DNA from: Paragorgia papillata
Taxonomy: Eukaryota > Cnidaria > Anthozoa > Scleralcyonacea > Coralliidae
Assembly: GCA_035771165.1 (NCBI GenBank)
Contig: JAWNZC010000285.1
Span: 1,279,501-1,343,500 of the forward strand
Length of the DNA stretch: 64,000 bases
Direction: 5' to 3'
Both the position numbers and the translations under genes were made by a program. Shown in pieces: positions 5,473 to 51,692 of the stretch; position 1 is the first letter of the stretch; each line of letters opens with the position of its first letter. The notes under the pieces were generated by a model. The model searched no databases. It was given only the letters and a program-made list of their open reading frames with translations, and was not told the origin of the DNA.

Positions 5473-6043
5473 CCGTATTATAGGAAATTAACGCTCGGGT
5501 TAATGAAGGTATTTGAAATTAACGCGACTTAAATTAACGCGAATTGAAGTTGAAACAACTTCCGAATGAAGGAAATTAATGCGAAAAGGAGGTTTTCAAA
5601 ACGAAGGAAATTAACACAATTAACGCAACGCAGTTTGTGGTGACGACAGAAACATATTTTACTTTAACACTGATTGTAAAATTCATTAATAATTCATGAG
5701 ATTAAGAAGCAATCAAAACGCAGCATTCAAGTCACATGTATACCTCTGTAAATCCCAATACAACTCCTCTGTATGAAAGCACGGGGAGGGATTGAATAGA
5801 TAGCAGGGAAAGGCTGGGGTTGATGAATTATGAATTAGTAAATTGACTTTTGATAAAGATACTTCCTAATAAGTATTCATAACTTTCGATAAAGATCTGC
5901 AAGGATGTTCATACATATATGATCTAAACACAACAACAAACTAATAATTATTGCAATTCAACACCACTCTTTCTTTTTAATGTCATTCACGCACATTTCT
6001 ACAATTTCAAACACCACAACCCATTTTGTCCAGCTACAATTTC

Positions 6044-7539
6044 TCACTTTTTACCGTTAACAATGAAACTAAAAGTACAATTATTGAATACAGAGTTTGT
6101 ACAAATATTATCAACATTACTAGTGGTTGAACATTCAGCCGGCAAAGCAATGCTCGCCAACAAATCATCTGACACATCACATTTGCCAAAATCAAATGCT
6201 CGGAAATCTTCATATATAGCTGTAGCCGCACTTGCAACCGCATTACTATCAGCACTGATTGAGCGCTAGTTTCGTTGCCATTCGAGCTTCCTCTGTTAAT
6301 TACCGGCCCCAAAACTTCACTAACATTTTCAAGCTGGAGTTTAGTCGGATTTTCATAAACAAACAACGCATTCGATTTGTGGCCAGTCCTGTCCCTCACT
6401 AATTTCTCCTCAATACTATTTTGAAACAATCTGCACGCACACGTTACCCTTAAACAATGTGCTGTTCTGCGTGCCAAACCTCCCTTTTCGCACAATTTTA
6501 CCGGCAAGATTTTGTTTAACGTACATGCACCTACTGGACTTCCCTCGTATTCAAACCTACCAGACCTATTTGGCCGAAAGTAAAAACTTTCCATCACCTC
6601 GGCATGCATTTTGATTTTGCTAATGTAAAGTGAATAGATACTCACCAAACATGGACTATGCGTTTGCCCTATCTTATGGCAAATGTGTTCGATATATCGC
6701 GGTTTGTTTTGCAAATCCTTTAAACCCCCTTGAAACGTCTTACAGTGGCTTTCGTCGAAAACTATACTATTTTCTTTCACAACAATATTAGCAAGCCTAA
6801 GTAGCCTATGTTCCCCAGCCCGTAGGCCGAATATTTTACCGTTATAATAATAGACAGTATGCAACAACGACTCAGCTGAATGCAATCCTAGAAGACCCTT
6901 CTCCCATAGCTTGGTCTCTTCTTCTTCAGTAATTTCTGCTTTTGCATCCCTTTTACACGCTTGGCCTATTCCACATTTCGTCGCATCCTTCATCTCAGCA
7001 TCAAGAGCTTTTCGAAACAGCGTAAACCTTTACAAGAAATATCACCATCGATAAGAAACAAGAATAAATTATTCTCTATGTTAAATACGATACTATACAT
7101 TTAAAGAAGCGGAGACAGCATATACAGAAACACATGTGACTTACCTCTTATCAGCTTTGTCAAGAACACTGAACGCTTTCTCTCCTTTTACATCACTCAA
7201 GTACCGATTAAGACCACACACAACCAAATATAATGTCTTCGGAGGGTATCGCCCGCCATTTCGCTTCGCTACTTCACAAATAAACTTGCACAGCCAGAAG
7301 CCAACAGTACAGGCAGACATTTCTTCCAGTGCGACTGTTAAATCTTCCACGTTGTCCAAATCGACTCCATCCACGCCGTCTGTCTCAACACGCCCTATCT
7401 TATTTCCTCGGTGCTGCTGCCAGTCCTCGAACAATTTTACAGCCCATTTAGTGTTATACTGCGTGTTTTTCGGAACAGCTTCAGACAAGAAAGATCTCTC
7501 TTCCTCTACGCTTTTAGGAACACGAAAGCGACTAGACAT
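6044..7539 (-). pseudogene. Crypton-type tyrosine recombinase, two exons, C-terminal frameshift
   Basis: Exon 1 (7539-7145) encodes an N-terminal SAM-like helical region (SVEEERSFLSEAVPKNTQYN...). An intron of about 117 bp (7144-7028, GTAAGT to TTGTAAAG) leads to exon 2, which continues FTLFRKALDAEMKDATKCGI in frame. The catalytic domain shows the tyrosine-recombinase set: Arg in FGLRAGEHR, His and Arg in HCLRVTCA, His in TGHKSN and Tyr in FVYEN. Near 6262 the frame shifts by one base: the ORF ending at 6034 gives a spurious hydrophobic tail, while the neighbouring frame gives a natural acidic tail ending NNCTFSF...GKK and stopping at 6044. That tail matches the [10 protein letters not shown] ending of the second Crypton at 51.38 kb. 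The catalytic core is intact; only the tail is broken. Confidence 0.85.
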
Positions 7540-17879: not shown

Positions 17880-20670
17880 TGTTTAATATTTAGACGTAAA
17901 TTTTAACGAGCAGTCGAGAGCAGTAAAGATTGGTTTCTGGCTTAACATTGCCATTGCTTTGGGGATACCAACATTGGCCAATCCGGTATACGTATACTGG
18001 ATATTTTGCTTAACATGCATCCTATTACACTAAAAGGAGGAAATGTATAACATTTAAAAAAAACTCCATGATAAGGAGGAAGCATCAGTAGCTGAGGCCC
18101 GAGGTTCAGGTCTGTAAGAGACATACTTAGGAAATTTTATGTATAATTAGGTTCAACATGTTGGACCCGTTTGAAAACCATATGCCTTAAGGCATACAGT
18201 ACTGTGCTGTTTATATACAGTATATCCACAAGCATACTGCATATGGGTAACGTCACAGTGCTCGGAACAGGACCTGTGATTGGTTGTTCTTAATTGGTGG
18301 TCCCAAGTTGTTGCTGTGGCTAACCCTAACATTTATCCTACTCTAATCCCACCCTAATCCTAAACCTAATCTTAAACCTAACCGTTAACCTAATCCTTAT
18401 CCCAATTTAAATCATAACAACTTCATTTTTTCCTTTTTGTTCATAACAAGTGCAACTTCGATTTCTGTTTTAGGATGAACCAAAGAGACCAGCCGGCTCA
18501 ACAAGCAGCAAGCCTCAATGCTGAGGGAAAGCTGGGACATATTATTGAACATTTTATTTATTAGTTAGCGTACCCAGGGCCTTTTGCCTCTCTCTTTTTG
18601 CCTCTTTTGAACTGGTTCAAAAAAAATTAAACGATGAATAAAATTGCCCCACAACATATATATTAAAACAATCTCATTGGTGTTTCTTTGTTTGTCTTAG
18701 TTAACCACCAGTCAAGCTAACTTGGTAGCATTGAAGTATTTCAATGAAGTATTTCAATAACATTAGTTAGCCTTAAGTCTGACAAATTCAAGAAGGCAGT
18801 GAAAGGCGTGGGATTGGTTTCTTTCAAGGAACTGGGCAAGAAAACAAAGCAGCAACTTGCTGAGTTGCTTGGGTATTATCTTTTGGAGAAAAAATTGTTC
18901 AAAAAATTACTTGTCATCAATGTCTATCTTTAAGTGATTTACCGGTTGTTTAATTTATATATTTAAAAAATGGATCATTGTCCATGTGGACTTAATATGA
19001 TCATCATGCAACAAACTAACAGACTTCAATTCAGTTGCCTGTGTAGCTGGGGCTCCGTTTGGCGTAGGAGCATAGGTTGTGGGCAGTTTGGAAGTGAGTG
19101 AGGGAATGAGGGCAAAAGGAACGCCTGCTAAAATCTTATTCAAATAATTGTGACTTGTGCAGCCAAAAGCATCGGCTAAATTGTCATTGGTTCATTTAAG
19201 TATTATGCAATTTTTTTTTATCATTTAACTCTATTACATGTCTTTTGATTGGTTATTTTGCTAATTGCTAAGTAAACATGTTAATCATGCTAATGAGGTT
19301 TGTAGACAACTTTGAATAGGATTTTGGAAGGCGTTCCTTCACATCTCCCCTTTCCATACTGAATGCCAGCCATGCAGTCTATAAATTCAGTTAAACTTAC
19401 CGTACTACAGACAATTTTGATAATTAGGTAACATTTGTGAATTTAAAAAAGAATGAAAGATGAAAATTCTGATTATAATATTAATTACAAAATTGTGTAC
19501 ATACTATTTCTTTACTAAGAAAGAAATTATAGTTTCAGACTATATCCATGTTACAGTACTACGTTGTTAAATAACATTTAATAAAATAATGTTGGTATTT
19601 CAATAGTATTTCGGCCATGCTACTATATATCCATAGTGTTTCCATACTACTACAAATACATAAATGCAATAACCCCTCGCCCGCAGTTTACATGAATTTT
19701 TGTAAATATCCCCTGATTAGAAAACATTAATGCAACCCCCATTGCCCTCTTTTTTGTTGGGGGCCTGGAAATAGGCTACAGGCAGGTGTAAAAATTTTGT
19801 CAAAATATTAAGGTTATATTTTACAGTTCTTTTGTTCTATGTTTACAAAAAAACATCCCTGCAGCATCAGAAAACATTTTTCAAAAACATGCATTGAATT
19901 GATTGAAAACTACTCAAACAACTACCTGGCTGGCTGCCACGGCTATATTGATTGATGGCATTTCAAATTCCTTTAAGCTATTATTAAACAAAAACAATTT
20001 TTTATTTCGAAATCTGAAGTGCTGAAACTGTTTTCACCTACATGTTAATAAATATTTCCACAGCATTTGTACATTTTACAGAAGAAAAATTTATCCTTTT
20101 CCGAGTTTTATGCCAAATTATGGACAAGCTACGTTAAGTCACAAGTGGTTATACAATAAGAAAACCATTTAAACGAAGATATTAAAACGGCAGCCACAGA
20201 TAAATACAACAGGCAAGCAAACTGAAATGCAATGGATACGTTTAAAACACTTTAAGGACACACAAAAAATAAAACAAAATTAACAGTGATAGGATGTAAA
20301 CAGGGAAACTTGAACAGTTTTGCTACTAAATGTTCGTGATTACTGAGAGCGGCTGCTCTAAACTTTTTTACTTTTGTTTACTTCCGTAAACTTTTCGCCG
20401 GTCTTTATTTCTTCGTTGGTTTTCAAGTTTTACTATTACTTTTTGCTCCTTTAGAGTTTCGGTTTGACTCGGGTTTCCTTCTACTCAAGACGTTGTTTTG
20501 CTTTATGCGTAGACGTTGATTTGTTTCTGTTCTTTCAAAAGTGATATATACGTTTCCCAAAAACTCCTTTCTCAAGTCTTTTTGTCAAGAAAAAATTATG
20601 TTGATATTTCAAATCTTTTTTTCAAGAACTACATTGTTCCCAGTGCCCCACACAATCTTAACCACACATA
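17880..20670. other. 2.8 kb without a recognised gene
   Basis: Scattered short ORFs only. It holds a degenerate CCTAA-rich patch (listed separately) and, at 19600-19655, early sporadic copies of the words that form the satellite starting at 20671. A small minus-strand frame at 19143-18955 has no recognisable motif. Confidence 0.4.
18320..18404. repeat. Degenerate telomere-like CCTAA repeat
   Basis: Reads CTAACCCTAAC, then successive CCTAATCC, CCTAAAC and CCTAACC words with insertions. It is short and imperfect. Confidence 0.45.
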
Positions 20671-21198
20671 TTTCCATACTATATCCATAGTATTTCCATA
20701 CTATATCCATAGTATTTCCATACTATATCCATAGTATTTCCATACTATATCCATAGTATTTCCATACCATATCCATAGTATTTCCATACTATATCCATAG
20801 TATTTCCATACCATATCCATAGTATTTCATACCATATCCATAGCATTTCCATACCATATCCATAGTATTTCCATACTATATCCATAGTATTTCCATACTA
20901 TATCCATAGTATTTCCATACTATATCCATAGTATTTCCATACTATATCCATAGTATTTCCATACTATATCCATAGTATTTCCATACCATATCCATAGTAT
21001 TTCCATACCATATCCATAGTATTTCCATACCATATCCATAGTATTTCCATACTATATCCATAGTATTTCCATACTATATCCATAGTATTTCCATACTATA
21101 TCCATAGTATTTCCATACTATATCCATAGTATTTCCATACTATATCCATAGTATTTCCATACTATATCCATAGTATTTCCATACTATATCCATAGTAT
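20671..21198. repeat. 22 bp satellite, about 24 copies
   Basis: Tandem units TTTCCATACTATATCCATAG plus TA, each made of two related 11 bp halves (TTTCCATACTA and TATCCATAGTA). Variation is nearly limited to T/C at one site (CATACTA versus CATACCA). The array ends with an inverted half unit, CATAGTATGGAAATG. There are no unique spacers, so this is not CRISPR. Confidence 0.95.
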
Positions 21199-21696: not shown

Positions 21697-21956
21697 CGGT
21701 CCATCTAATTCGACAAAGGAAAACTGAATATTACAATAAAGCATCGACTAAAAATCTAAAAAATCCTTCAAAACTGTGGGAAATCTTAAAAGAGGTTACT
21801 CTTTCGAAAAGTAAAAAATCTCCTAATATGCTTATTATTGATAACATTGAATATTCTGAACCATTTGAGATTAGTGACATCTTCAACAACTATTTTAAAA
21901 ATGTTGTGGATGAATTAAAGAGCACAATGCCTAATGCTACATTCAATCAGCCTATT
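21697..21956 (+). pseudogene. LINE (CR1/L2-like), segment 1 of 3: linker between endonuclease and reverse transcriptase
   Basis: The plus frame reads LIRQRKTEYYNKASTKNLKN, then KLWEILKEVTLSKSKKSPNM and ISDIFNNYFKNVVDELKSTM, the usual region just before the reverse transcriptase of such LINEs. The element is 5'-truncated here (no endonuclease), as is common for LINE insertions. It resumes at 27711 after the E1/E2 elements, reading NPFIEEFVNSRIQKD in the same frame. Confidence 0.8.
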
Positions 21957-22610
21957 AACAATCCTGCAATGTCTGGCATAGGGCTTGAAACCACACCAAT
22001 AACTACAGTACCCGCACTAGCGAGCCTAACAAGGATACAGTAATGTAACTACGACCTTTGGAGGGTGTAGCTCCGTCGGAGAGGGTTTGCCCTAATAGCT
22101 GAGGAACAGTTTACAGGAACAGGCGATCCACCAAGACGGGTGCGGTCTTATAGGTAGAGCAGCTCCAGGCAAGCCTAAACTCCCAACTAACTTGTAGCAA
22201 TGTTGCCGAGAATTACTCTCTCCTAACAGAACTACTGTCACACATAAAGTGGAGAAGTAACTTACCAAATGATAATCAATGGTTCCGAAATTACCATACC
22301 GACCTGGACCTAAGAAAGCCACCAGGGGCCAACCAACAGAGAAAGGGCGAAAGCTGCATTTGAACAACCAACATCCAGGTGACCATCAATGACCGGAACC
22401 TGTACGCAAAGCCAGAAGCAAAGGCCCACGCCTGCAACATAGACAAGCAACAAACGGGCCCTTTCCAAAGCAGGTAGACAGGTACATAGCAAACAATGGC
22501 AAGCAACGAGCTGGACTTAAGAGCAGCTGAAGAGCCCAATAGACTTAAATTACACTACGCAAAAACCGAATAAGCCGGTACCGTAAAGCACAAGCTACAA
22601 CACATCACAG

Positions 22611-23110
22611 CACAATACAGCACACTACGGCACATTTTCTCGGAGTAGCCAAGAACACACCCTACAAACTAAGTTATCACCCAGAGTAGCCAGGGAACAG
22701 ACCAGATGTACTGGCGCGAAACACAAACTACCAACAGCTAAGCACAAACTACTACTAGTAATAACTACTACACAAAATGACAGCACACTACTGCACATTT
22801 TCTAGGAGTAGCCAAGAACACACCCTACATAAGTTATCACCCGGAGTAGCCAGGGAACAGACCAGGTGTACTGGCGCGAAACACACAAGCGCACCGCGAG
22901 GACCCGAGGACCCCCAACACGACTGTGCAACAGCGGGGGGCACAAATACAGACCCCCAACGTCATGTATGGCAAAGTTGCACAGTACGGACCCACACACA
23001 CTAGCAGCAGGCCAGAAGGCCACAGCTGAACTAGTATAGTAGACCCCCCACACGACTGTGCAACAGCAGGGGGCACAAATACAGACCCCCAACGTCATGT
23101 ATGGCAAAGT
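22611..23110. repeat. Stepwise tandem duplications inside E1
   Basis: A block containing GGAGTAGCCAAGAACACACC and GGGAACAGACCAG occurs at about 22635-22725 and again at 22804-22885. A second block containing CCCCCAACGTCATGTATGGC occurs at about 22950 and 23085. The two duplications lie next to each other. Confidence 0.8.
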
Positions 23111-23269
23111 TGCACAGTACGGACCCGCACAACGACATCGCCCAAACAGTTAAAGAGACCCCCACACAACAGGGCAATGGCAGGGGAGAACAAATACACT
23201 TCCCCAGAGACAGTACGGCAGCAGAAAGCACAAAACAGTCCCCACCGACTGTACGACAGCAGTAAAGCA

Positions 23270-23945
23270 TACCTACAGCCACCCGCAACTGTAGTATAGC
23301 AAAGTAGCACAAGGAGCTCCCCGCAACTGCAGCTGACAGCAACTTAGCACAACGCAGATACCCAGCAACAGTATGACCGCGAGGCCCCGTAGGACAAAGG
23401 CAGACACCCATGGTACAGGAGGACAAAGGCAGTCACCCAGGGTACCGTAGGACAAAGGGAGTCACCCAGGAAAGAGGAGGACAAACATGGCCTCTGCAAC
23501 TAAGGGATAGTATTAAATAGCCCCAACGCAAAGCGGAACCCCCCGCAACTGTAAGACAGCAAGGAGCACTAGCACAAATGCAGACCCCCCACCAGCAAGA
23601 AGAGTACAGCAAAGTAGCGCACAAGCAACCATGTAGCAACTGTACGACAGCAAGGTACATTAGCACAAATGCAATCCCCCCGCAACAATATGATAGCAAA
23701 GGTAGCAAACATGCGATCACCTAGCAAAGGCACGATAGCAAGGTACAAAGTACAAATGCAGTCCCCAGCAACAATATAAAAGTAAAGTAGCACACTGGCA
23801 ACCCCCAAGCAACTGTACGATAGCCAGGTACAATAGCCTAAATGCAGTCTCCCAGCAACAATATGATGGCAAAGTAGCATACAAGCAACCACCCAGCATC
23901 TGTATGATTGCAAAGTAGTGCAAATGCAGTACCCGGGGAACACAA
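23270..23945. repeat. Degenerate ~45-50 bp VNTR inside E1
   Basis: About a dozen diverged units with the order CCCGCAACTGTACGACAGCA, then AGGTACATTAGCACAAATGC, then AG and a C run. Units differ in length and sequence, so the array is old or was assembled by slippage. Confidence 0.75.
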
Positions 23946-24256
23946 ATACCATCCCCGCAACGATTGCAGGCACAAGGGTCACCAGCAGCAACACAAATCC
24001 TACTTGCACGACTGAGCGAGCTCAAGCCAAGGACTGGCAACGGCTCAACCACCTGGACGCCTTAACACGGGGTGGGTGGTAGCGAAGCGTCACGTACGGC
24101 AGTCAGTACACGAATGAGCTCTGAGCCACTACGCACATTAACTTAGCCAAGGGGTTCTACTGGGGGTATCAAATCCACTAGCCCCAAGGGACCTGTGGAA
24201 CAACAACATATACACATCGCATGATGTTAATTATTTTTATTTCATAAATCCATTTA

Positions 24257-27200
24257 ACAATCCTGCAATGTCTGGCATAGGGCTTGAAACCACACCAATA
24301 ACAAAAGTACCCGCACTAGCGAGCCTAACAAGGATACAGTAATGTAACTACGACCTTTGGAGGGTGTAGCTCCGTCGGAGAGGGTTTGCCCTAATAGCTC
24401 AGGAACAGTTTACAGGAACAGGCGATCCACCAAGACGGGTGCGGTCTTATAGGTAGAGCAGCTCCAGGCAAGCCTAAACTCCCAACTAACTTGTAGCAAT
24501 GTTGCCGAGAATTACCCTCTCCAACGACACACTCCAGCTATGCTGGAGAAGGGATTCGAGGCACGAACCCTGCCCAATGGCGTTTCTACCACCCAATAAC
24601 CTCGTGGTGAAACTGCAACACATGGAGAACTGCGAATGTAACGACGAGAGGCACTGTGGGACCAAGAGAGTCTTATCTGGGAAGCCCGCTACAGCATGGG
24701 TCAGATACAGCCGGCACCGCGACAAATATATGAGCAACGACACATGAGATGCAGCAGGAGAAAAAAAAAAGGGGGGGACACGACGTGGCACGGGCCAAGA
24801 GCTCGTTGAACACTTAGAACACATACAAGCAGCCCGAATGGCAAAGCACACAAGCACTAGCAATCCTAACCTATAAGCCACCCCCACAGGCATGGTAACT
24901 TAACCTACACCCAGGTAGAGTGACAATGGTAACCAATAACTCGGTACGTGCCTCAGCAGTAGCGTGCAACCTAAGAGACGATCAGCGGCAAACCGCAGAT
25001 GCAGAAGCTATGGACCCCCAAAGCGCATCAACATCGCAAGCGTAAGACCCATCATACACAGCGGCAGGTGGACCCAACAAAGCAGCACGACCAACAATGT
25101 AACACCTCAAGAGCCACCTCTAGCAAAAAGTGGAAGTAACTCTTAAGCTAAAACCCGGCGCGCGCCGCAATCAAGGTAACCTAAGACATGACACGCGCAG
25201 CAGCTCTAGGAACCACAGGTTCGTCACATGCACAACTACAGTAACCGAAGACAAGTGAGCGGAGCAACTATTGTAAAGACCGACACGGCGGGTGTGGTAG
25301 TAGTACCACAACCAATGTGAAAGACCGCTGTCGTGGTAACCTGAGGTACGCACAGCAGCAAGTGTGGCTTCAGAAAAACAAACAGCAGCAATGGACCCAG
25401 TGGTGGTGGGGTAAGTGAACCCACCTAAAACAGCAAGTGCAGCGGGATAACCTAAGACAAATCTGGTGCAGCAGCAAAACATACTATCTGGAACCACCAG
25501 GAACGGTGGCAAGCAGGGACTGAGACTGGCGAGGCGCAAGACTTGGCAACAAGAAACAGGGGGGGGGGCAATGGAAGCACCAGAAACACATCCGGTGTGG
25601 CAGCCAATTAACCCACAAGACATAACCCATAAGACATAACCGTGTATGATCTTTGATCTGGCCATGAAGAAAGGCTGGTAGTAAACCCCGCAGCAGTACA
25701 GCATCTAGACAAAACCAATTACGATCCGCCAAATTCCAGACCCTGTAGGAACCATGCAACAGTTAGCAGGCTGAAAGACGAAATGGGTGAGCCCAGTGTA
25801 ACACCCACTGTGGGACAGGGGCTAGCATGGCCCAACATCTCAACTCGCAGCCCAAGAGTGAGGGAAGGCCTACAACACGTGCGGGCTCATAATGCGGATA
25901 GGCCCAGAACAGGAGGGGAGAATTAGCAACTTCCCAGCATGACACCCCGACCCAGGACGCGTAGCCCACGAAAGCAGATAATAGCACAACAGCACAATCC
26001 TAGCACACAAGGCCGACGCCACAAGCAAGCAATCCCCAAGGCAAATAGACAAAAGGCGCCTGAATGGCCCAAAAAACAGCCTGAAAGCAAGGCCATAACA
26101 AGGCCTTCTTGCAGAAAGCGCTAGTATGCAGGTAGTATAGTAGGCAGGCAATCGGGCACTCTACAATATCAAGTCGAGCAGCAAAACGAGCCAGAAACAG
26201 AGCTGCCCTAAAGTGACGAGCAAACAATACAGAGTTTAATATAAAAGGTAACACAAAATTACAAAGACCGCGGTGTTGAGGAGATTAACATTGAAATAAG
26301 CAACCAGTGAGAAAAGCAACGTCGAAGAAAAAACAAATGCACTTGGACGTCTGGTATAACGTGGTTATGATCCCTGTCACACCCATAAGGAGGTCACTTG
26401 GCAGCATTGTTTAGGAACAAAGGACAGATATTCCAGTGGGATTTGCAGTCGGACGATGTCAAGCCCATAAAACAAAACAAAACATAACAGATAATTAGCC
26501 AAACAAATTTTGCACATAACATCACCGACCTATAATTCTTTGTTGCTGTGAGCTAAAGCAGTAAACCGCACAAAAGACAGCACAGAAAATATGGCCTTCT
26601 GTATAAAGCCAACTGTATTAACTCATACGAACATATACTAGACAAGTTAGACACGGTATCGAAAAGACAACATAATAAAGCATGCAGAGTACGATAACGC
26701 TAAGGAAGCCCTATAAAGGATTTACCAACTAATAGTACAGCAAATTGCCAGCGAAGAATAACTAGCCCCAGTGCGGACGGCAGTATAGAACAGGCCAGGC
26801 AATATTTAGATAAAATCGAACGACTCGACTCACCTGGTAATTTATCCCAAATTAGGGCGTCCAACGACTTGACAACACGTATGGCCTTTCGAACTTGTAC
26901 GCCAGAGCGGAACAGTACTGAGATCTGAACAGCTAGCATATGCTACGAGCCGGTCAAACCTACAAACGCTTAGCTCAGAAACACAAGCTGATTGAACTGC
27001 GCCGAGGACCAGAATAAACAGTCTCCTTCGAGAAGGCTATAGCTCAAAACGCAACGAACAAGCGGTAGGGGAAGTGCAAACAACACCACGGACCAAGTAG
27101 CGGTCTGTGAACAACAAAATTCTCCGGTACTAACTGTGGAGAGAACGAACAACTGAACACGCCACGGAACTGAAGACAAGCAAGCTAGCGGCAAAACAGC

Positions 27201-27709
27201 AGCATATAAAAATTGCAGCAAATCGATTAGACGCGACAAAAACTGATAATTTAAGCACAAACGTGGCAATGAGCCACAGCTAAAAACGTCTGAAAGCTAA
27301 GCTACAGCTAGTGTACAAACCATACAACCGGCATAAACCGCTCGGAGTGAAGAGCCAGTTGAGCCAAAGTCTACGGCAGCATATCAAGCGACGAAGCACG
27401 ACCAGCAAAGGGCAAGAAAACCTTAGTTTCATGGCAGCGTTTCCCACTTATCTGCCAACAACGCTGTGGACGGGTAAATAGCTGACGGTAGTCTTGGACC
27501 GAACCCGAGAAATTCGAGAAACAGCTAGACAAGCAGCCTTTTGGTAGCGAAGCGTCACGTACGGCAGTCAGTACACGAATGAGCTCTGAGCCACTACGCA
27601 CATTAACTTAGCCAGGGGTTCTACTGGGGGTATCAAATCCACTAGCCCCAAGGGACCTGTGGAACAACAACATATACACATCGCATGATGTTAATTATTT
27701 TTATTTCAT
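24257..27709. mobile_element. E2: second long non-coding element, 3.45 kb, flanked by 11 bp direct repeats
   Basis: Carries the same 5' module (24257-24522) and 3' module (27542-27709) as E1 but a different ~3.0 kb interior, again T-poor on the plus strand. AAATCCATTTA flanks it at 24246-24256 and 27710-27720 and looks like a target-site duplication; its length suits target-primed reverse transcription. E2 sits directly after E1 in the same orientation. No coding sequence recognised. Confidence 0.75.
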
Positions 27710-27865
27710 AAATCCATTTATAGAGGAATTTGTAAATTCGAGAATCCAAAAAGACACAAAATTCCAAATACCTACTATAACGGAACAAAAGGTCTTTGAA
27801 TATCTGAAAAGTATTGACACAACAAAAGCAAAAAGCCTAGATGATATAACCCCGTACCACCTTAA
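27710..27865 (+). pseudogene. LINE segment 2 of 3: start of reverse transcriptase
   Basis: Reads FIEEFVNSRIQKDTKFQIPT, then TEQKVFEYLKSIDTTKAKSL, DDITPYHL up to the TTAA at 27862-27865. This is the beginning of the reverse-transcriptase domain and continues in frame at 32335 once the Kolobok insertion is removed. Confidence 0.85.
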
Positions 27866-28168
27866 AGGGGAACTCCACCCCGGCAACATGTTTGCGTTAT
27901 ATTAAACTTAGTATGGCAAAGAACTTACCTTCCAAGTTTGACTGTTCATATTTGAATAGTTCGCCAGAAATTTGCCATCGGAGTTCGCAAAATACAAACA
28001 CTTCCATCGCCATTTTGTGCAAGATCTGTAGGCTCAGAAAGGGAAAGCGGAAGTACCCATGAGGCTGCTGTGACGTCATTGCGTGAAAGCGAAAAGCTCT
28101 TAATACACAGTTTATAAGAAAGTCTGTAAGATCTGTTTTATTATACTGTTTCTTTTACAACAAACCTA

Positions 28169-28992
28169 ATGGCAGCGGAGAGTATTCAACCTTACGCATT
28201 TGAGCCAATAAAACCAATTGTTGAGGAAAGTGATTCAGAAGAAAACAGTGGCGAATCTGATGAAATGGAGAGCGACAACGACCAGGTACGGACTGGAAAT
28301 ATTTCGTGGTGCAAGTGCAAAGCTTGTAGGCCAATGGACACAGAAAGAGAAAGTCTATGTTGTCAAGAGATGGCAGAACTTAATCAGAAACTTGATGGTA
28401 AGGGAGTGTGATAAAATTTGCGCCCCATATGGTAAAAAAAACTCGTTTATATGTTTTTGTTGTTTTATGTATTTTTTCAGAGGCAAGTGCTATCTGCATC
28501 ACGAATGTCCCATCATTCGACGTTGTGTGTAAACATCCCGATGTTTTACGAACTGCATTGGTTTGTATGCACGACGTTAGAAGCGATGCTTTACCGGAGC
28601 CTTTAGAAAACAGGTATTTATATGACATTAGCATGTTTATAATAACTTTCATTTACATGTAATATTATATGGAATAATATAACTAAATTGCACTTTGATA
28701 AATGTTCATATAAGATCTATTTAAACTTATATAATCTTAACTTACTTTTGTTTTATTTTTTAAGTTGTTGTCGATGTTTACATTGTTATATTTGTTCTGT
28801 GTAAAATTTAGAATTCTCCGATTGGCAGCATATCGGCAGTTCACTTAGTGGATACATACACGACTGGGGAAGGCTGTAAGGAAAGTTATTCCATCTTGTT
28901 CTGTGTGGTCGATTAGAGATGCATATCCTGAAGAAAATAACGGCTACACTGGCTTTCGAGACCCAGATGACGACGAATATTTTCCAGTGTAA
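28169..28992 (+). pseudogene. P2X7-ballast-like (P2RX7 C-terminal domain) gene, three exons, one nonsense codon
   Basis: Exon 1 (28169-28397) encodes an acidic N-terminus and ISWCKCKACRPMDTERESLC followed by CQEM, the cysteine cluster typical of the intracellular ballast domain of P2X7. Intron 1 is GTAAGG...TTTTTTCAG; exon 2 (28481-28613) gives EASAICITNVPSFDVVCKHP and continues to LVCMHDV. Intron 2 follows and exon 3 (28812-28992) gives LRLAAYRQFT, a TAG at 28846-28848, then WIHTRLGKAVRKVIPSCSVW and SIRDAYPEENNGYTGFRDPD. Apart from that stop the gene looks whole. There is no channel part, so this is a stand-alone ballast-domain protein. Cysteine spacing suggests zinc binding. It is convergent with the transposase. 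Confidence 0.8.
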
Positions 28993-29210
28993 AGTAAAGA
29001 ATCGTTTGTGATGCTCGTTTTTTATTTAAATACTTGTATAATACATTTGTATTTGAATTTGAATCAACTCAGTGAGGTGTTATAGTTTCTCTATTAAACG
29101 TTTCTCTAAGTTAGAATTTAAATTTATATATACAATATTCACATATCAACAGGTCAATAACATTCTACTTGCCAAATCTCGACTTGTGCCTGGCAATAAT
29201 AGTGTTTTTC

Positions 29211-32015
29211 TCAGGTCTTGGCATTGGAGCGATATTTTTCGGAATTTTGTCTGGTACTGTGATACCCGTGACTTTCCTGTCCTCCAACTTCAACATACAA
29301 CATGTCAAAAACATACTTGTATGATTTTTTCTTCTTCATAGGTTTTGCCACCCAGTTCTTGCGCCCTTTGGGAAACACCACCTTGTAACGTTCCTGTCCA
29401 CCGTGGCCATCTTTGTTGGATGTTACTGCCTGAGATCGATCAAGGTTAAAATTATGATCCATCGCTGCAAGTTGTGTTCTAGCAACCATTCCTCTGTATG
29501 GGAAATGCTGGCGCTTTGGAAGGTACTTCAGCATCAATGAATGGAAGACCTCTAATTCGCCAGTGTGGTGAAACTCTGTCATCTTTTGTAGATCCTTCAG
29601 GAACCTTTTATTGAAGACAACTTCTAGTAATACCTGGTGGCTAGGTGAGCCTGCCTTGATCCAGTCAGTGCTTTTCACTTCCTGCCTTGTGAGTCGGTGA
29701 TGGACACATTTCTTGAATTTCTTGCAACCACCCCAAGAATGCTTATTTGTCACGTGGTGTATTATTGATGTCCACTTTTCTATGAGAACAGTGGCGTCAC
29801 CTCCACAGTTTGCTGCACTCCACCACAAGTGATTGGAAATGGACTGAATCCAGTGGTTAAGATCTTCACATCCTTTAGTCTTTGCTTTCTTTGTAAGCTT
29901 CTTGACCACCCATTTTGCCAAGTGCCATGTATCATATTGGTGTTTTATTTTTGGATAGAGCTTCCTCATGTTGGAAGTAACTGTGGTGTGCTGGTCTGTT
30001 GCCAAGCATCGAATTTTGACCTTTTCACTGATCAAAGCGTTGAGGCATCTGTTGCAACCTTCTGGCTCCATAGCATTTGATGATGTTACCTCATTTACTT
30101 GGACTACCTGAGTATCAAGGATTCGTCCAGACGACTCTTCCATCATGCTATATGTTCCATACTTGGCATTGTGTCCTGGGCTATCTGCTCGACCATCTCC
30201 ACAAAGATCAATAGGACCAGATTTCTTCGCTTCATCAATGGCACTTTTCCGGTGAATTTTCTCCATGCATTATTTATAATTGGCCATAAGTATAGTTTCT
30301 GAATGTCATAAAATTTTGTTTCAGAAAGCAATGACATGCAAAACTGCTAATGTTGGAGTATGTGTTTCCACTGAAAAGAATTGCTGCAGATAGAATAAGG
30401 TTTCCTGCTGGCATTGCATTTATCAGTGGTTGTGAATCCCACTTTGAGCTGTGCCCATTGATGCATGAATACTTGACAGAAAGTAGGGAACCTACTTTCT
30501 GCTTTGTTGTACTTGTAATTGGTGCAGAACATTCTGGGCAAAGAGAAAATAATTTGTCAAGTTGACTCTCAAAAACCAAATACTTCTTAGTATTTATCAG
30601 CTCTTTTGCAACATCAATTTCATCTGAGGAATCTGAGTCTTCAGAAGTTGACATGCCACTTATAGTGAAGTCACTATCAGACTCTTCATCATTAATGTTT
30701 GTTGATGCTGGAGATTCTGGAAGCTCAGGGCATATAGCAGTGGGCATAAAGAGGGGATCTTCTGCTGGTTGATTCACTTGATCGGCAATTTGCTTTAGTC
30801 CCACAGAAACACTCAAACCATTGTCTGCTGGTATGTCCTCTGTTGTCATGTTCATTGATTCACTGCTGTACCCATCAAACTGAACAGCCTTGTCTGCAAG
30901 CACAGGTTGGTTAAATTTCAAAACATCTGTTTGAATCTCAACAGAAACAAGACATTTAACCCTGGTGTTACACTGTGTTCCTACGTTCAGTTTGAGTGGT
31001 ACTCTACAATTTTCTATGTTGTCTTCACAGGACAAGTCAGGTGGCTCAGACCTGGCTATCATAACATCCATATCTTTTTCTGGTTGTTGTATAAGTAGAA
31101 CTTGATGTGTGTTGGAAGTTGAAGTGAGTGTGTCTACTGTTTCTTGGATTTGGCTATTAGCTTCAACTGGGGTTTTCTCCTCTGGTTGAGTTGCTATATT
31201 TTCTTTGTTACACGTGAGAAGTTCTTCCAGCATCTAAACATACATAGATTAAAGGAGATTTTAGACAAAAAATTGAGATGATTTAAATGGAGATCATCAT
31301 ATTCAAAACATGCAACTATAATTTAATTGATGTACAATGACTATATCCTTGTTCATTAGAAATTAATTGAATTTTAAATTTCAAATTAGTATCTCAGTAT
31401 AAATATAATGTGGCGTGTCTTGTATTATGTTCGACGACGTACATTGTTTCAATTATATTTTAGAATCATCCTCAGAGAAACGTGATGTACTGAATTAAAT
31501 TGCTACTGGGCCAGAATGGACTTGCTTTTGATTAGGACCAAATTTTCCAGTCAGACCATCCCAGGCCTCAAACGGATCGTGTTCCATTTAACCGGAATGA
31601 CCGGTCTAACCGTGTAAATGGAAAGCCCCCTAAGACTTCCATTCCCCTGGCCTAAAGAAAACCAAACTTACTGTCTACTGACCTTGTATTTAGCTTGTTC
31701 CGCCAGTCTTACTTCACTATTTTTACGAGATTGCATCGGTGATCGCCGTGGAAATACAGTCGGTATTGCTCCGGTACGTAACCTACGCCGTTGTTTCTCG
31801 CCAGTAAGTTGTTCCATGAATGAAACCTCGAATGAATCTTCAGTAAAATGGTCTGAACAGACATACGAGTAAGCAACAGGACATGGATTGACACGAGGTA
31901 TTCTGTTTAGCCATATCTTTCGCGTTTTCTGATCTGATGGGATTCTGTGAAAACTTACACGACCACCACAGCGTTGACTACAATTTGTACATCCCGGAAC
32001 CATGCAATGAGGCAT
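29211..32015 (-). pseudogene. Kolobok transposase with N-terminal THAP domain, frameshifted
   Basis: Exon 1 encodes a full THAP zinc finger: MPHCMVPGCTN (C-x4-C), KIWLNRIPR, YVCSDHF (C-x2-H) and an AIPTVF box. The likely start is the ATG at 32015; an upstream in-frame ATG lies in the inverted repeat. An intron of about 449 bp (31682-31234, GTCAGT to GTTTAG) joins KYK to MLEELLTCNK in phase. The middle is acidic with CPECSAP and CINGHSSKWDS. Frameshifts near 30335 and 30250 break the region LSETKFYDIQKLYLWPIINN...IDEAKKSGPIDLCGDGRADS. The catalytic region follows: IRCLATDQHTTVTSNMRKLY, YDTWHLAKWV, and FHSLMLKYLPKR to the end. Two small shifts apart it is complete. Confidence 0.88.
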
Positions 32016-32334
32016 AACGTCGGAAACATGAATAGTTTTGAAATAAAATTGCAATGCGATTGAAACTATAATTATTTCGACTATTCGTATATTTCCCGCG
32101 AAACAATCTTCACGCAATGACGTCACAGCAGCCTCATGGGTACTTCCGTTGTCCCTTTCTGAGCCTACAGATCTTGCACAAAATGGCGATGGAAGTGTTT
32201 GTATTTTGCGAACTCCGATGGCAAATTTCTGGCGAACTATTCAAATATGAACAGTCAAACTTGGAAGGTAAGTTCTTTGCCATACTAAGTTTAATATAAC
32301 GCAAACATGTTGCCGGGGTGGAGTTCCCCTTTAA

Positions 32335-50528: not shown

Positions 50529-51692
50529 ACTCGTACTCAGACTCTTTTCTCCGGGCCATGTTTTGAAAAACTCGTGTTTGGAACCAAATATCTCGGGCAG
50601 TTTTCATCCGTTGAAGGAGTGTTATATATCGTTGGAATCGTCTCAATACAGCCGATTTTTAGAAAAAAAATGAAAATTCTCGTATATGCACTTTAATTTC
50701 AACCAAAAACCACCAAGGCGGTCTGATCGACAACATTGACGAAGCTGACGGCAAATTGTTTGAAGTTCCCAATTCACCTCGTTGTCCAGTTAAAACCGTA
50801 GAAAACTTCATGAAGCACCTTAATCCAAATCACGACGCTTTGTTTCAGCGGCCAAGAGAAATTTGTGCCAAGTTTCAAGTGGACAGTGATAAAATTTGGT
50901 TCTATAATTCCCCCCTTGGTATAAACACGCTCGGAAATCTACTCAAGACCATGTCGAAAGCCGCCGGGATAATCCCTCACCTAACAAATCATTGCATTCG
51001 AGCTACGTCTGTCACAGTTTTGTCCGACCACGACATAGAGGCTAGACACATCAAGGCTGTCACTGGTCACAAATCTGATCTCTCCATTCAGTCGTACAGC
51101 TCGAGGGCTTCTTTCCAGCAGAAGGAAAACATGTCGAATATTCTAAGTCGCTTCGTCTCGGGCGAGAGTATTCCTTCCATTCAGTCTAGTCGCTGCAGCT
51201 CTACTTACAGAAAGTCAGACCTTATGCAATCATCACCCGCAACGTCTTTGGCACTTGAAACAACTGATCAGGCTAACTCTGATGTCCAGCTTCGCATTGA
51301 AAACCAAGCCACAAATATCCAGATGCAAGCTCCCCAATCGTTCAATTTCCATGGCTGCACAGTGTCAATCTTTAACAACTAGTACATCAGTCAAGCACGA
51401 TCGTTTCCACTTTCCAGTTGAACTTTTGTTCCCTTGGTAGTCGTTTATTTTATAACTTTTAAGAAGAAATTCTTTCTTACGAATGTTTTATGGACATTTT
51501 TTAAAACAAAACGGTTTGCTTCTGACAGTTGATCCTTCGAGTATTAATACATAATCACGTGCTTACATGTCATGTGATGTCGTGTAAGTTCGCGCGTGCG
51601 TATAAAATTGAATTAAATTATTTTAAATATTACACGGTGTATGGATTATTTTCTCGAAATTAATATATCTAGGTACAGGGTGTATACTAAAA

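Follow-up and report, generated by a model that had tools for sequence, protein, structure and literature searches.

A two-part non-coding element with split direct repeats in Paragorgia papillata, probably a non-autonomous relative of the DIRS order

Mobile elements with split direct repeats have the general layout A1-internal-B1-A2-B2 (PMC4157794; PMC8969392; PMC9210276). Ngaro elements are arranged as A1-[ORFs]-B1A2B2, the ORFs being open reading frames, and leave isolated AB repeats behind (PMC8547959). In DIRS1, a 3-bp circular junction recombines with the same three bases in the genome and no target duplication arises; NTT stands at the start and end of 23 of 28 annotated elements (PMC3266345). 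VIPER, an element of trypanosomes, also makes no target duplication (PMC6681497; PMC12278014), and its short non-autonomous form, SIRE, spans A2-B2 (PMC6681497). Here, an element of about 6,000 bases is described from a stretch of 64,000 nucleotides of the octocoral Paragorgia papillata (contig JAWNZC010000285.1, positions 1,279,501 to 1,343,500, forward strand), which is called the window. The element consists of two abutting units, E1 and E2, in which no protein was found, and it is apparently recently active. Its behaviour is that of a split-repeat element, and it probably belongs, as a relative that is non-autonomous, near the DIRS order, of which it is not a proven member.

The element lies on the plus strand of the window in the order A1-int1-B1-A2-int2-B2. 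A1 and A2 are copies of a 5' module (M5), B1 and B2 are copies of a 3' module (M3), and int1 and int2 are the interiors of E1 and E2. A TTA core at the left insertion boundary (21955..21957) is followed by A1 (21958..22223), int1 (22224..24076) and B1 (24077..24253). A second TTA core, resembling a circle junction (24254..24256), separates B1 from A2 (24257..24522), which is followed by int2 (24523..27541), B2 (27542..27717) and a third TTA core at the right insertion boundary (27718..27720). In BLAST comparisons the two M5 copies are 98.5% identical over 269 bp and the two M3 copies 99.4% identical over 180 bp, and int1 has zero plus-strand matches to int2 at 1e-5. A first-pass annotation, made by a model from the sequence alone, had reported near-identical end modules around unrelated interiors in a long mobile element, and this description holds. 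The four differences between A2 and A1 are absent from every other aligned copy. The int1 interior contains internal repeats, namely 29- and 87-bp tandem units and a 90-bp repeat spaced 133 bp. An inverted repeat (TGTTAA...TTAACA, 23-bp loop) crosses the M3|M5 junction at 24225-24259 and may be a recombinase-binding pair or due to chance.

Copies of the element were sought in the 618-Mb assembly with M5, and 40 scored hits were obtained from 348 candidates. Many of these 40 form same-strand pairs 2.2-2.8 kb apart. Twenty 10-kb loci, chosen via the 5' module, were fetched and read together with the window (21 loci). The unit order is M5-int1-M3|M5-int2-M3. Thirteen loci carry complete dimers (the window, L031, L033, L037-L039, L042-L044 and L046-L049), including one whose last module is interrupted by about 370 bp (L044) and one whose second modules have deletions of 10 and 12 bases (L046). 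Four loci carry E1-only monomers (L032, L034, L041 and L045). In the stretches read, L035 and L036 hold a dimer whose E1 is without its 5' part, and L040 and L050 hold an E1 without a 3' module. L035 and L036 represent one insertion present twice in the assembly, as do L040 and L050, leaving 19 independent insertions among the 21 loci. The insertion of L045 is also present twice (L051/L053), as judged from a shared right flank and 99.2% identity over 481 bp. The near-identical surroundings of these three doubled insertions point to uncollapsed haplotypes or recent duplications, by which copy counts are inflated. Assembly duplication as the whole explanation was rejected, as the flanks differ between copies even though three insertions are doubled.

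The exact M3|M5 junction (ATCCATTTAACAATCCTGCAATG) is found at 47 places in the assembly, against 0 for the reversed control. Together with the 40 scored hits to M5, this excludes a local assembly accident. The B-TTA-A junction is present in all 15 dimer loci shown. Sixteen of the 40 listed M5 places coincide with an M3|M5 junction and 24 do not. Among the 24, int1 comes next in all 23 that were read (the C265 place was unread); among the 16, int1 lies upstream in the 13 read (upstream of C75, C176 and C265 was unread). An E2 on its own was not observed at any of the 40 M5 places listed. The 17 int1 and 15 int2 copies match their own kind over 96-100% of their length and never the other kind, and int2 measures 2879-3072 bp in 15 of 15 copies. 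The interiors are therefore not exchangeable cassettes, contrary to what the first-pass annotation had supposed; among the copies read each unit has a single interior, the very outcome that it had named as counting against it. Nor is E2 a second insertion that landed beside E1, since 13 complete dimers show one and the same junction. Since order, junction and interiors all recur across copies, E1 and E2 are one element with fixed interiors.

The ends of the element are sharply defined. It starts with TTA-ACAATCC, with one base change in L047, and ends with ATCCAT; AAATCCAT closes the 3' module at the 3' end in 19 of 19 loci shown, and the left boundary reads TT|A in the same number of loci. 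These represent 18 insertions, and the left triplet is TTA in all of them. At the right end, 10 of the 18 have TTA, seven a triplet with one mismatch and one a triplet with two; under a simple AT-rich background the first two counts correspond to about 1e-10 and 1e-9, respectively. The 11-bp direct repeat AAATCCATTTA, which had been taken for a target duplication around E2, is the end of M3 plus this triplet (TTA in 10 of the 18 insertions), and the flanks differ. No poly-A or tail repeat is present at the element ends shown.

Two empty sites can be reconstructed, and as far as the flanking sequence permits they speak against target duplication. In the window, the element sits in the coding sequence of a long interspersed nuclear element (LINE). 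The left flank (21704..21954, plus strand, left limit approximate) forms an open frame with TTATAGAGG, and relatives of the LINE align across this region; the coding sequence goes on in the right flank (27718..27865, plus strand) until a second, unrelated insertion. When the flanks are brought together with a single TTA, the LINE reads in frame (...FNQPIIEEF...), although an open frame has a chance of one in three. An octocoral protein is among the LINE relatives matched. The second site is that of L049, which lies in a satellite array whose length is kept across the filled site.

The paired modules of a dimer vary together, and a variant that several loci share lies, with few exceptions, in both copies. 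Among 11 undamaged dimers, counted as locus-by-variant instances, 6 of 21 M5 variants and 12 of 24 M3 variants are present in both copies of the dimer; the variants present in one copy are single-locus changes or lie at right-core positions. A22T occurs in both modules of L038 and L049, and T138C in both modules of L038, L039, L042, L048 and L049. Several single-locus variants also occur in both modules, such as A22C in L039, A22G and T88A in L042, and T185A in L037. The true pairing was unmatched in 20,000 permutations for both M5 (13 dimers) and M3 (14 rows, in which the L035/L036 insertion is counted twice). Mean pairwise divergence among the 11 dimers is 0.8-1.0% for M5, 1.0-1.1% for M3, 2.7% for int1 and 3.6% for int2. 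The paired modules thus behave like long terminal repeats, as would be expected if B1A2 regenerated both ends at each move.

No protein was found to account for the element, in agreement with the first-pass annotation. The four ORFs of at least 120 amino acids inside the window copy, all on the minus strand, have no Pfam match; on the plus strand, open stretches in other copies reach 144 amino acids. The longest open stretch in the five element copies examined is 252 amino acids. Three-base periodicity is absent across 366 variable int2 columns, and a degenerate coding interior was rejected on the strength of this result and of the lack of Pfam matches in the four ORFs. Rfam gave no family at E<=1 in the E1/E2 region and ARAGORN no tRNA, and three exact patterns had no match in viral contigs. 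Of the RNA folds of both modules on both strands none is strongly unusual, the best z being -1.96 (3' module, minus strand) and the others -0.29 to 0.84.

Both interiors are T-poor on the same strand, as had been claimed. The T content of the plus strand is 0.13 in int1 and 0.16 in int2. Two stretches of flanking DNA reach 0.35 and 0.30, and T-poverty is not a property of the modules (0.20-0.26). A long Pol III transcript shunning T-runs was rejected as the cause, since the number of T-runs is close to that expected from base composition: int1 has 6 TTT (4.0 expected) and 2 TTTT (0.52 expected), and int2 has 16 TTT (12.1 expected) and 1 TTTT (1.91 expected). Substitutions were counted as minor bases against the column majority in gap-free surroundings, and are strand-asymmetric, clearly in int2 and more weakly in int1. 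In int2, T>A was counted 37 times over 408 T columns and A>T 13 times over 871 A columns (p=1.2e-9). T>C/A>G (p=0.007) and C>A/G>T (p=0.003) are asymmetric to a lesser degree, and the remaining three pairs not at all. In int1, T>A occurs 12 times over 150 columns and A>T 12 times over 473 (p=0.007), with nothing for the other pairs. For int2, GTR is outperformed by a non-reversible model (AIC 15099.9 vs 15069.9), whose estimated T frequency is 0.158, against 0.159 observed. Because genomic mutation after insertion should be nearly strand-symmetric, the asymmetry is taken to reflect the errors of a strand-specific replication step; it may stem from the polymerase and not from editing, from mutation linked to transcription or from selection. 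On this view the T-poverty would most likely be the equilibrium that such errors reach in the element's own replication.

These observations are interpreted, with moderate confidence, as those of a non-autonomous retrotransposon of the tyrosine-recombinase type with the split direct repeats A1-int1-B1A2-int2-B2. A non-coding transcript would be reverse-transcribed by enzymes supplied in trans, presumably by a helper element. The internal B1A2 junction would serve as the template from which both ends are restored, and the product would be a DNA circle closed via B-TTA-A. A tyrosine recombinase, also supplied in trans, would then recombine the 3-bp TTA core with a TTA-like triplet in an AT-rich target without duplication. 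Several features of the DIRS order are present. A1 lies at the 5' end, B1 abuts A2 and B2 lies at the 3' end (13 complete copies; 47 junctions); A1 and A2, and B1 and B2, are identical or nearly so within a copy, the remaining differences being mostly private; and the 3-bp core at 18 left and 18 right ends is like that of the circle junction, without duplication at two sites. The split repeats, the likeness of paired repeats, the 3-bp core, the solo A-B forms and, at the two inferable sites, the lack of target duplication are shared with the Ngaro/PAT-like elements. Unlike these, the Paragorgia element has two long, unrelated, T-poor interiors, and no gag, reverse transcriptase (RT)/RNase H or tyrosine recombinase was found in it. 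SIRE of trypanosomes is similarly non-autonomous and bounded by A and B repeats, as are the E1 monomers; however, its own sequence between the repeats amounts to about 30 bp (PMC6681497), whereas E1 has about 2 kb and E2 about 3 kb, and here dimers outnumber monomers among the loci read.

A number of points weigh against this interpretation. In the split-repeat members of the DIRS order B2 is expected close behind A2, as in Ngaro and VIPER, whereas here the two are separated by int2, about 3 kb long, in all 15 copies measured. Comparison of the four ORFs with Pfam revealed neither RT/RNase H nor a tyrosine recombinase, and no open stretch exceeds 252 amino acids in the five copies examined; as no enzyme gene was found in the element copies, the element is at most a non-autonomous member of the order. 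E1-only copies are present at four sites without an internal B1A2 template. All four monomers are E1, although simple recombination between repeats should yield E2 as well. T101C is found in M3 of the monomers L032 and L045, at different sites, and in no dimer read, as if E1 monomers could move themselves and hinting at a mobile monomer lineage. Outside the 11 undamaged dimers, C17T is shared by the M3 of L034 and the B1 of L036, whereas the B2 of L036 lacks it. T>A asymmetry is missing from int1 singletons (p=0.5) and asymmetry from module singletons, though the latter are few (20 in M5 and 4 in M3). Losses and gains of T add up to 80 and 64 in int2 and to 25 and 41 in int1, so that T is near balance and not falling. 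At the LINE site, the alignments of the 13 relatives shown are gapped by 1-5 residues at the insertion point or close to it, the length being checked only roughly. The filled site of L049 reads TTA, whereas its 15 neighbour units read GTT (12), TTT (2) or CTT (1), and none TTA.

The monomers are better explained by a non-autonomous rolling-circle element of the Helentron type, an origin that is nevertheless considered unlikely. Helentron-type elements have a 5' terminal T, insert upstream of a T, and carry hairpins at their ends as well as asymmetric inverted repeats of short length (PMC8969392). M5 would be the start and M3 the terminator, so that a stop at the first M3 gives E1 and read-through gives the dimer; that four of four monomers are E1 is what read-through predicts. 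The lack of target duplication and the AT-rich sites are shared with Helentrons. In 14 of 18 insertions the base next to the 3' module is a T, which fits a Helentron without being specific to it, and a hairpin with a 5-bp stem lies near the 3' end of the element. However, the only perfect hairpin with a stem of at least 6 bp in the joined M3-M5 stretch of the window crosses the junction, and there is none in the 5' module. The right triplet, TTA or near it, is more specific than a single T. The same variants in both M5 and both M3 of a dimer are left unexplained by rolling-circle transposition itself, and no Rep-helicase was found with Pfam in the four ORFs of the window copy. The split-repeat reading is the better one for the paired modules and the triplet core.

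Cassette joining at the DNA level is judged distinctly unlikely. E1 and E2 would have been circular cassettes of a Crypton- or integron-like tyrosine-recombinase element, joined at att-like ends (ATCCAT-TTA-ACAATCC), after which the dimer became the moving unit. The 3' end of E1 would be an att-like site open to an E2 circle, E1 monomers exist, and the window contains two ORFs of the tyrosine-recombinase type, although these are unlinked to the element. An E2 standing alone is, however, missing from the 40 M5 places listed, as far as these were read, and the asymmetry of the substitutions hints at an intermediate that is single-stranded or RNA. SVA elements are composite, non-coding and repeat-bearing, and have poly-A and target duplication. 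A composite element of this kind, LINE-mobilised and with its modules kept alike by gene conversion, is highly improbable, for although gene conversion can homogenise direct repeats and the element sits inside a LINE, its ends are defined with a TTA core and show no poly-A or tail repeat, target duplication is lacking, the interiors are fixed and the repeats split, so that the analogy with SVA drawn in the first-pass annotation falls away.

Within the split-repeat reading, a more far-reaching picture is offered tentatively and is itself rather doubtful. In this picture a protein-free, two-segment element would form a circle via B-TTA-A, renew its four modules pairwise and carry two unrelated non-coding RNAs in fixed order. 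Its interiors would be kept T-poor by strand-specific replication errors, T being the least stable base, and its E1 half would be mobile alone.

Several other features were identified in the window. The LINE that hosts the element carries a second insertion at 27862-32334, with 227-bp terminal inverted repeats that are 99% identical, an apparent TTAA target duplication (CACC-TTAA-AGGGGAAC ... GTTCCCCT-TTAA-GCTAGC) and a THAP-domain ORF; it resembles a Kolobok-type DNA transposon. Upstream of the host LINE fragment, an array of 24 copies of a 22-bp unit, 98% matching, occupies 20669-21198. Two ORFs, at 6034-6993 (minus strand) and 50756-51382 (plus strand), match DUF3504, with Phage_integrase just below the curated cut-off. 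They are tyrosine-recombinase-type genes and do not adjoin E1/E2.

In the literature covered, which excluded most subscription papers and the repeat databases, no non-coding split-repeat element with two long interiors was found; the available parts of PMC2632668 and PMC12477816 contain nothing on non-autonomous split-repeat elements, and the nearest described forms are SIRE and the solo AB repeats. Compared with the known split-repeat class, the Paragorgia element is unusual in its 3-kb second interior, its two unrelated non-coding interiors in fixed order, its strand-biased base composition and its strand-asymmetric substitution. With dimers and monomers present at high identity, the family offers a test of the way in which split repeats are copied and of the need for an internal B1A2 junction in transposition, and may show if the errors of a retrotransposon's replication are recorded in the T-poor strand.

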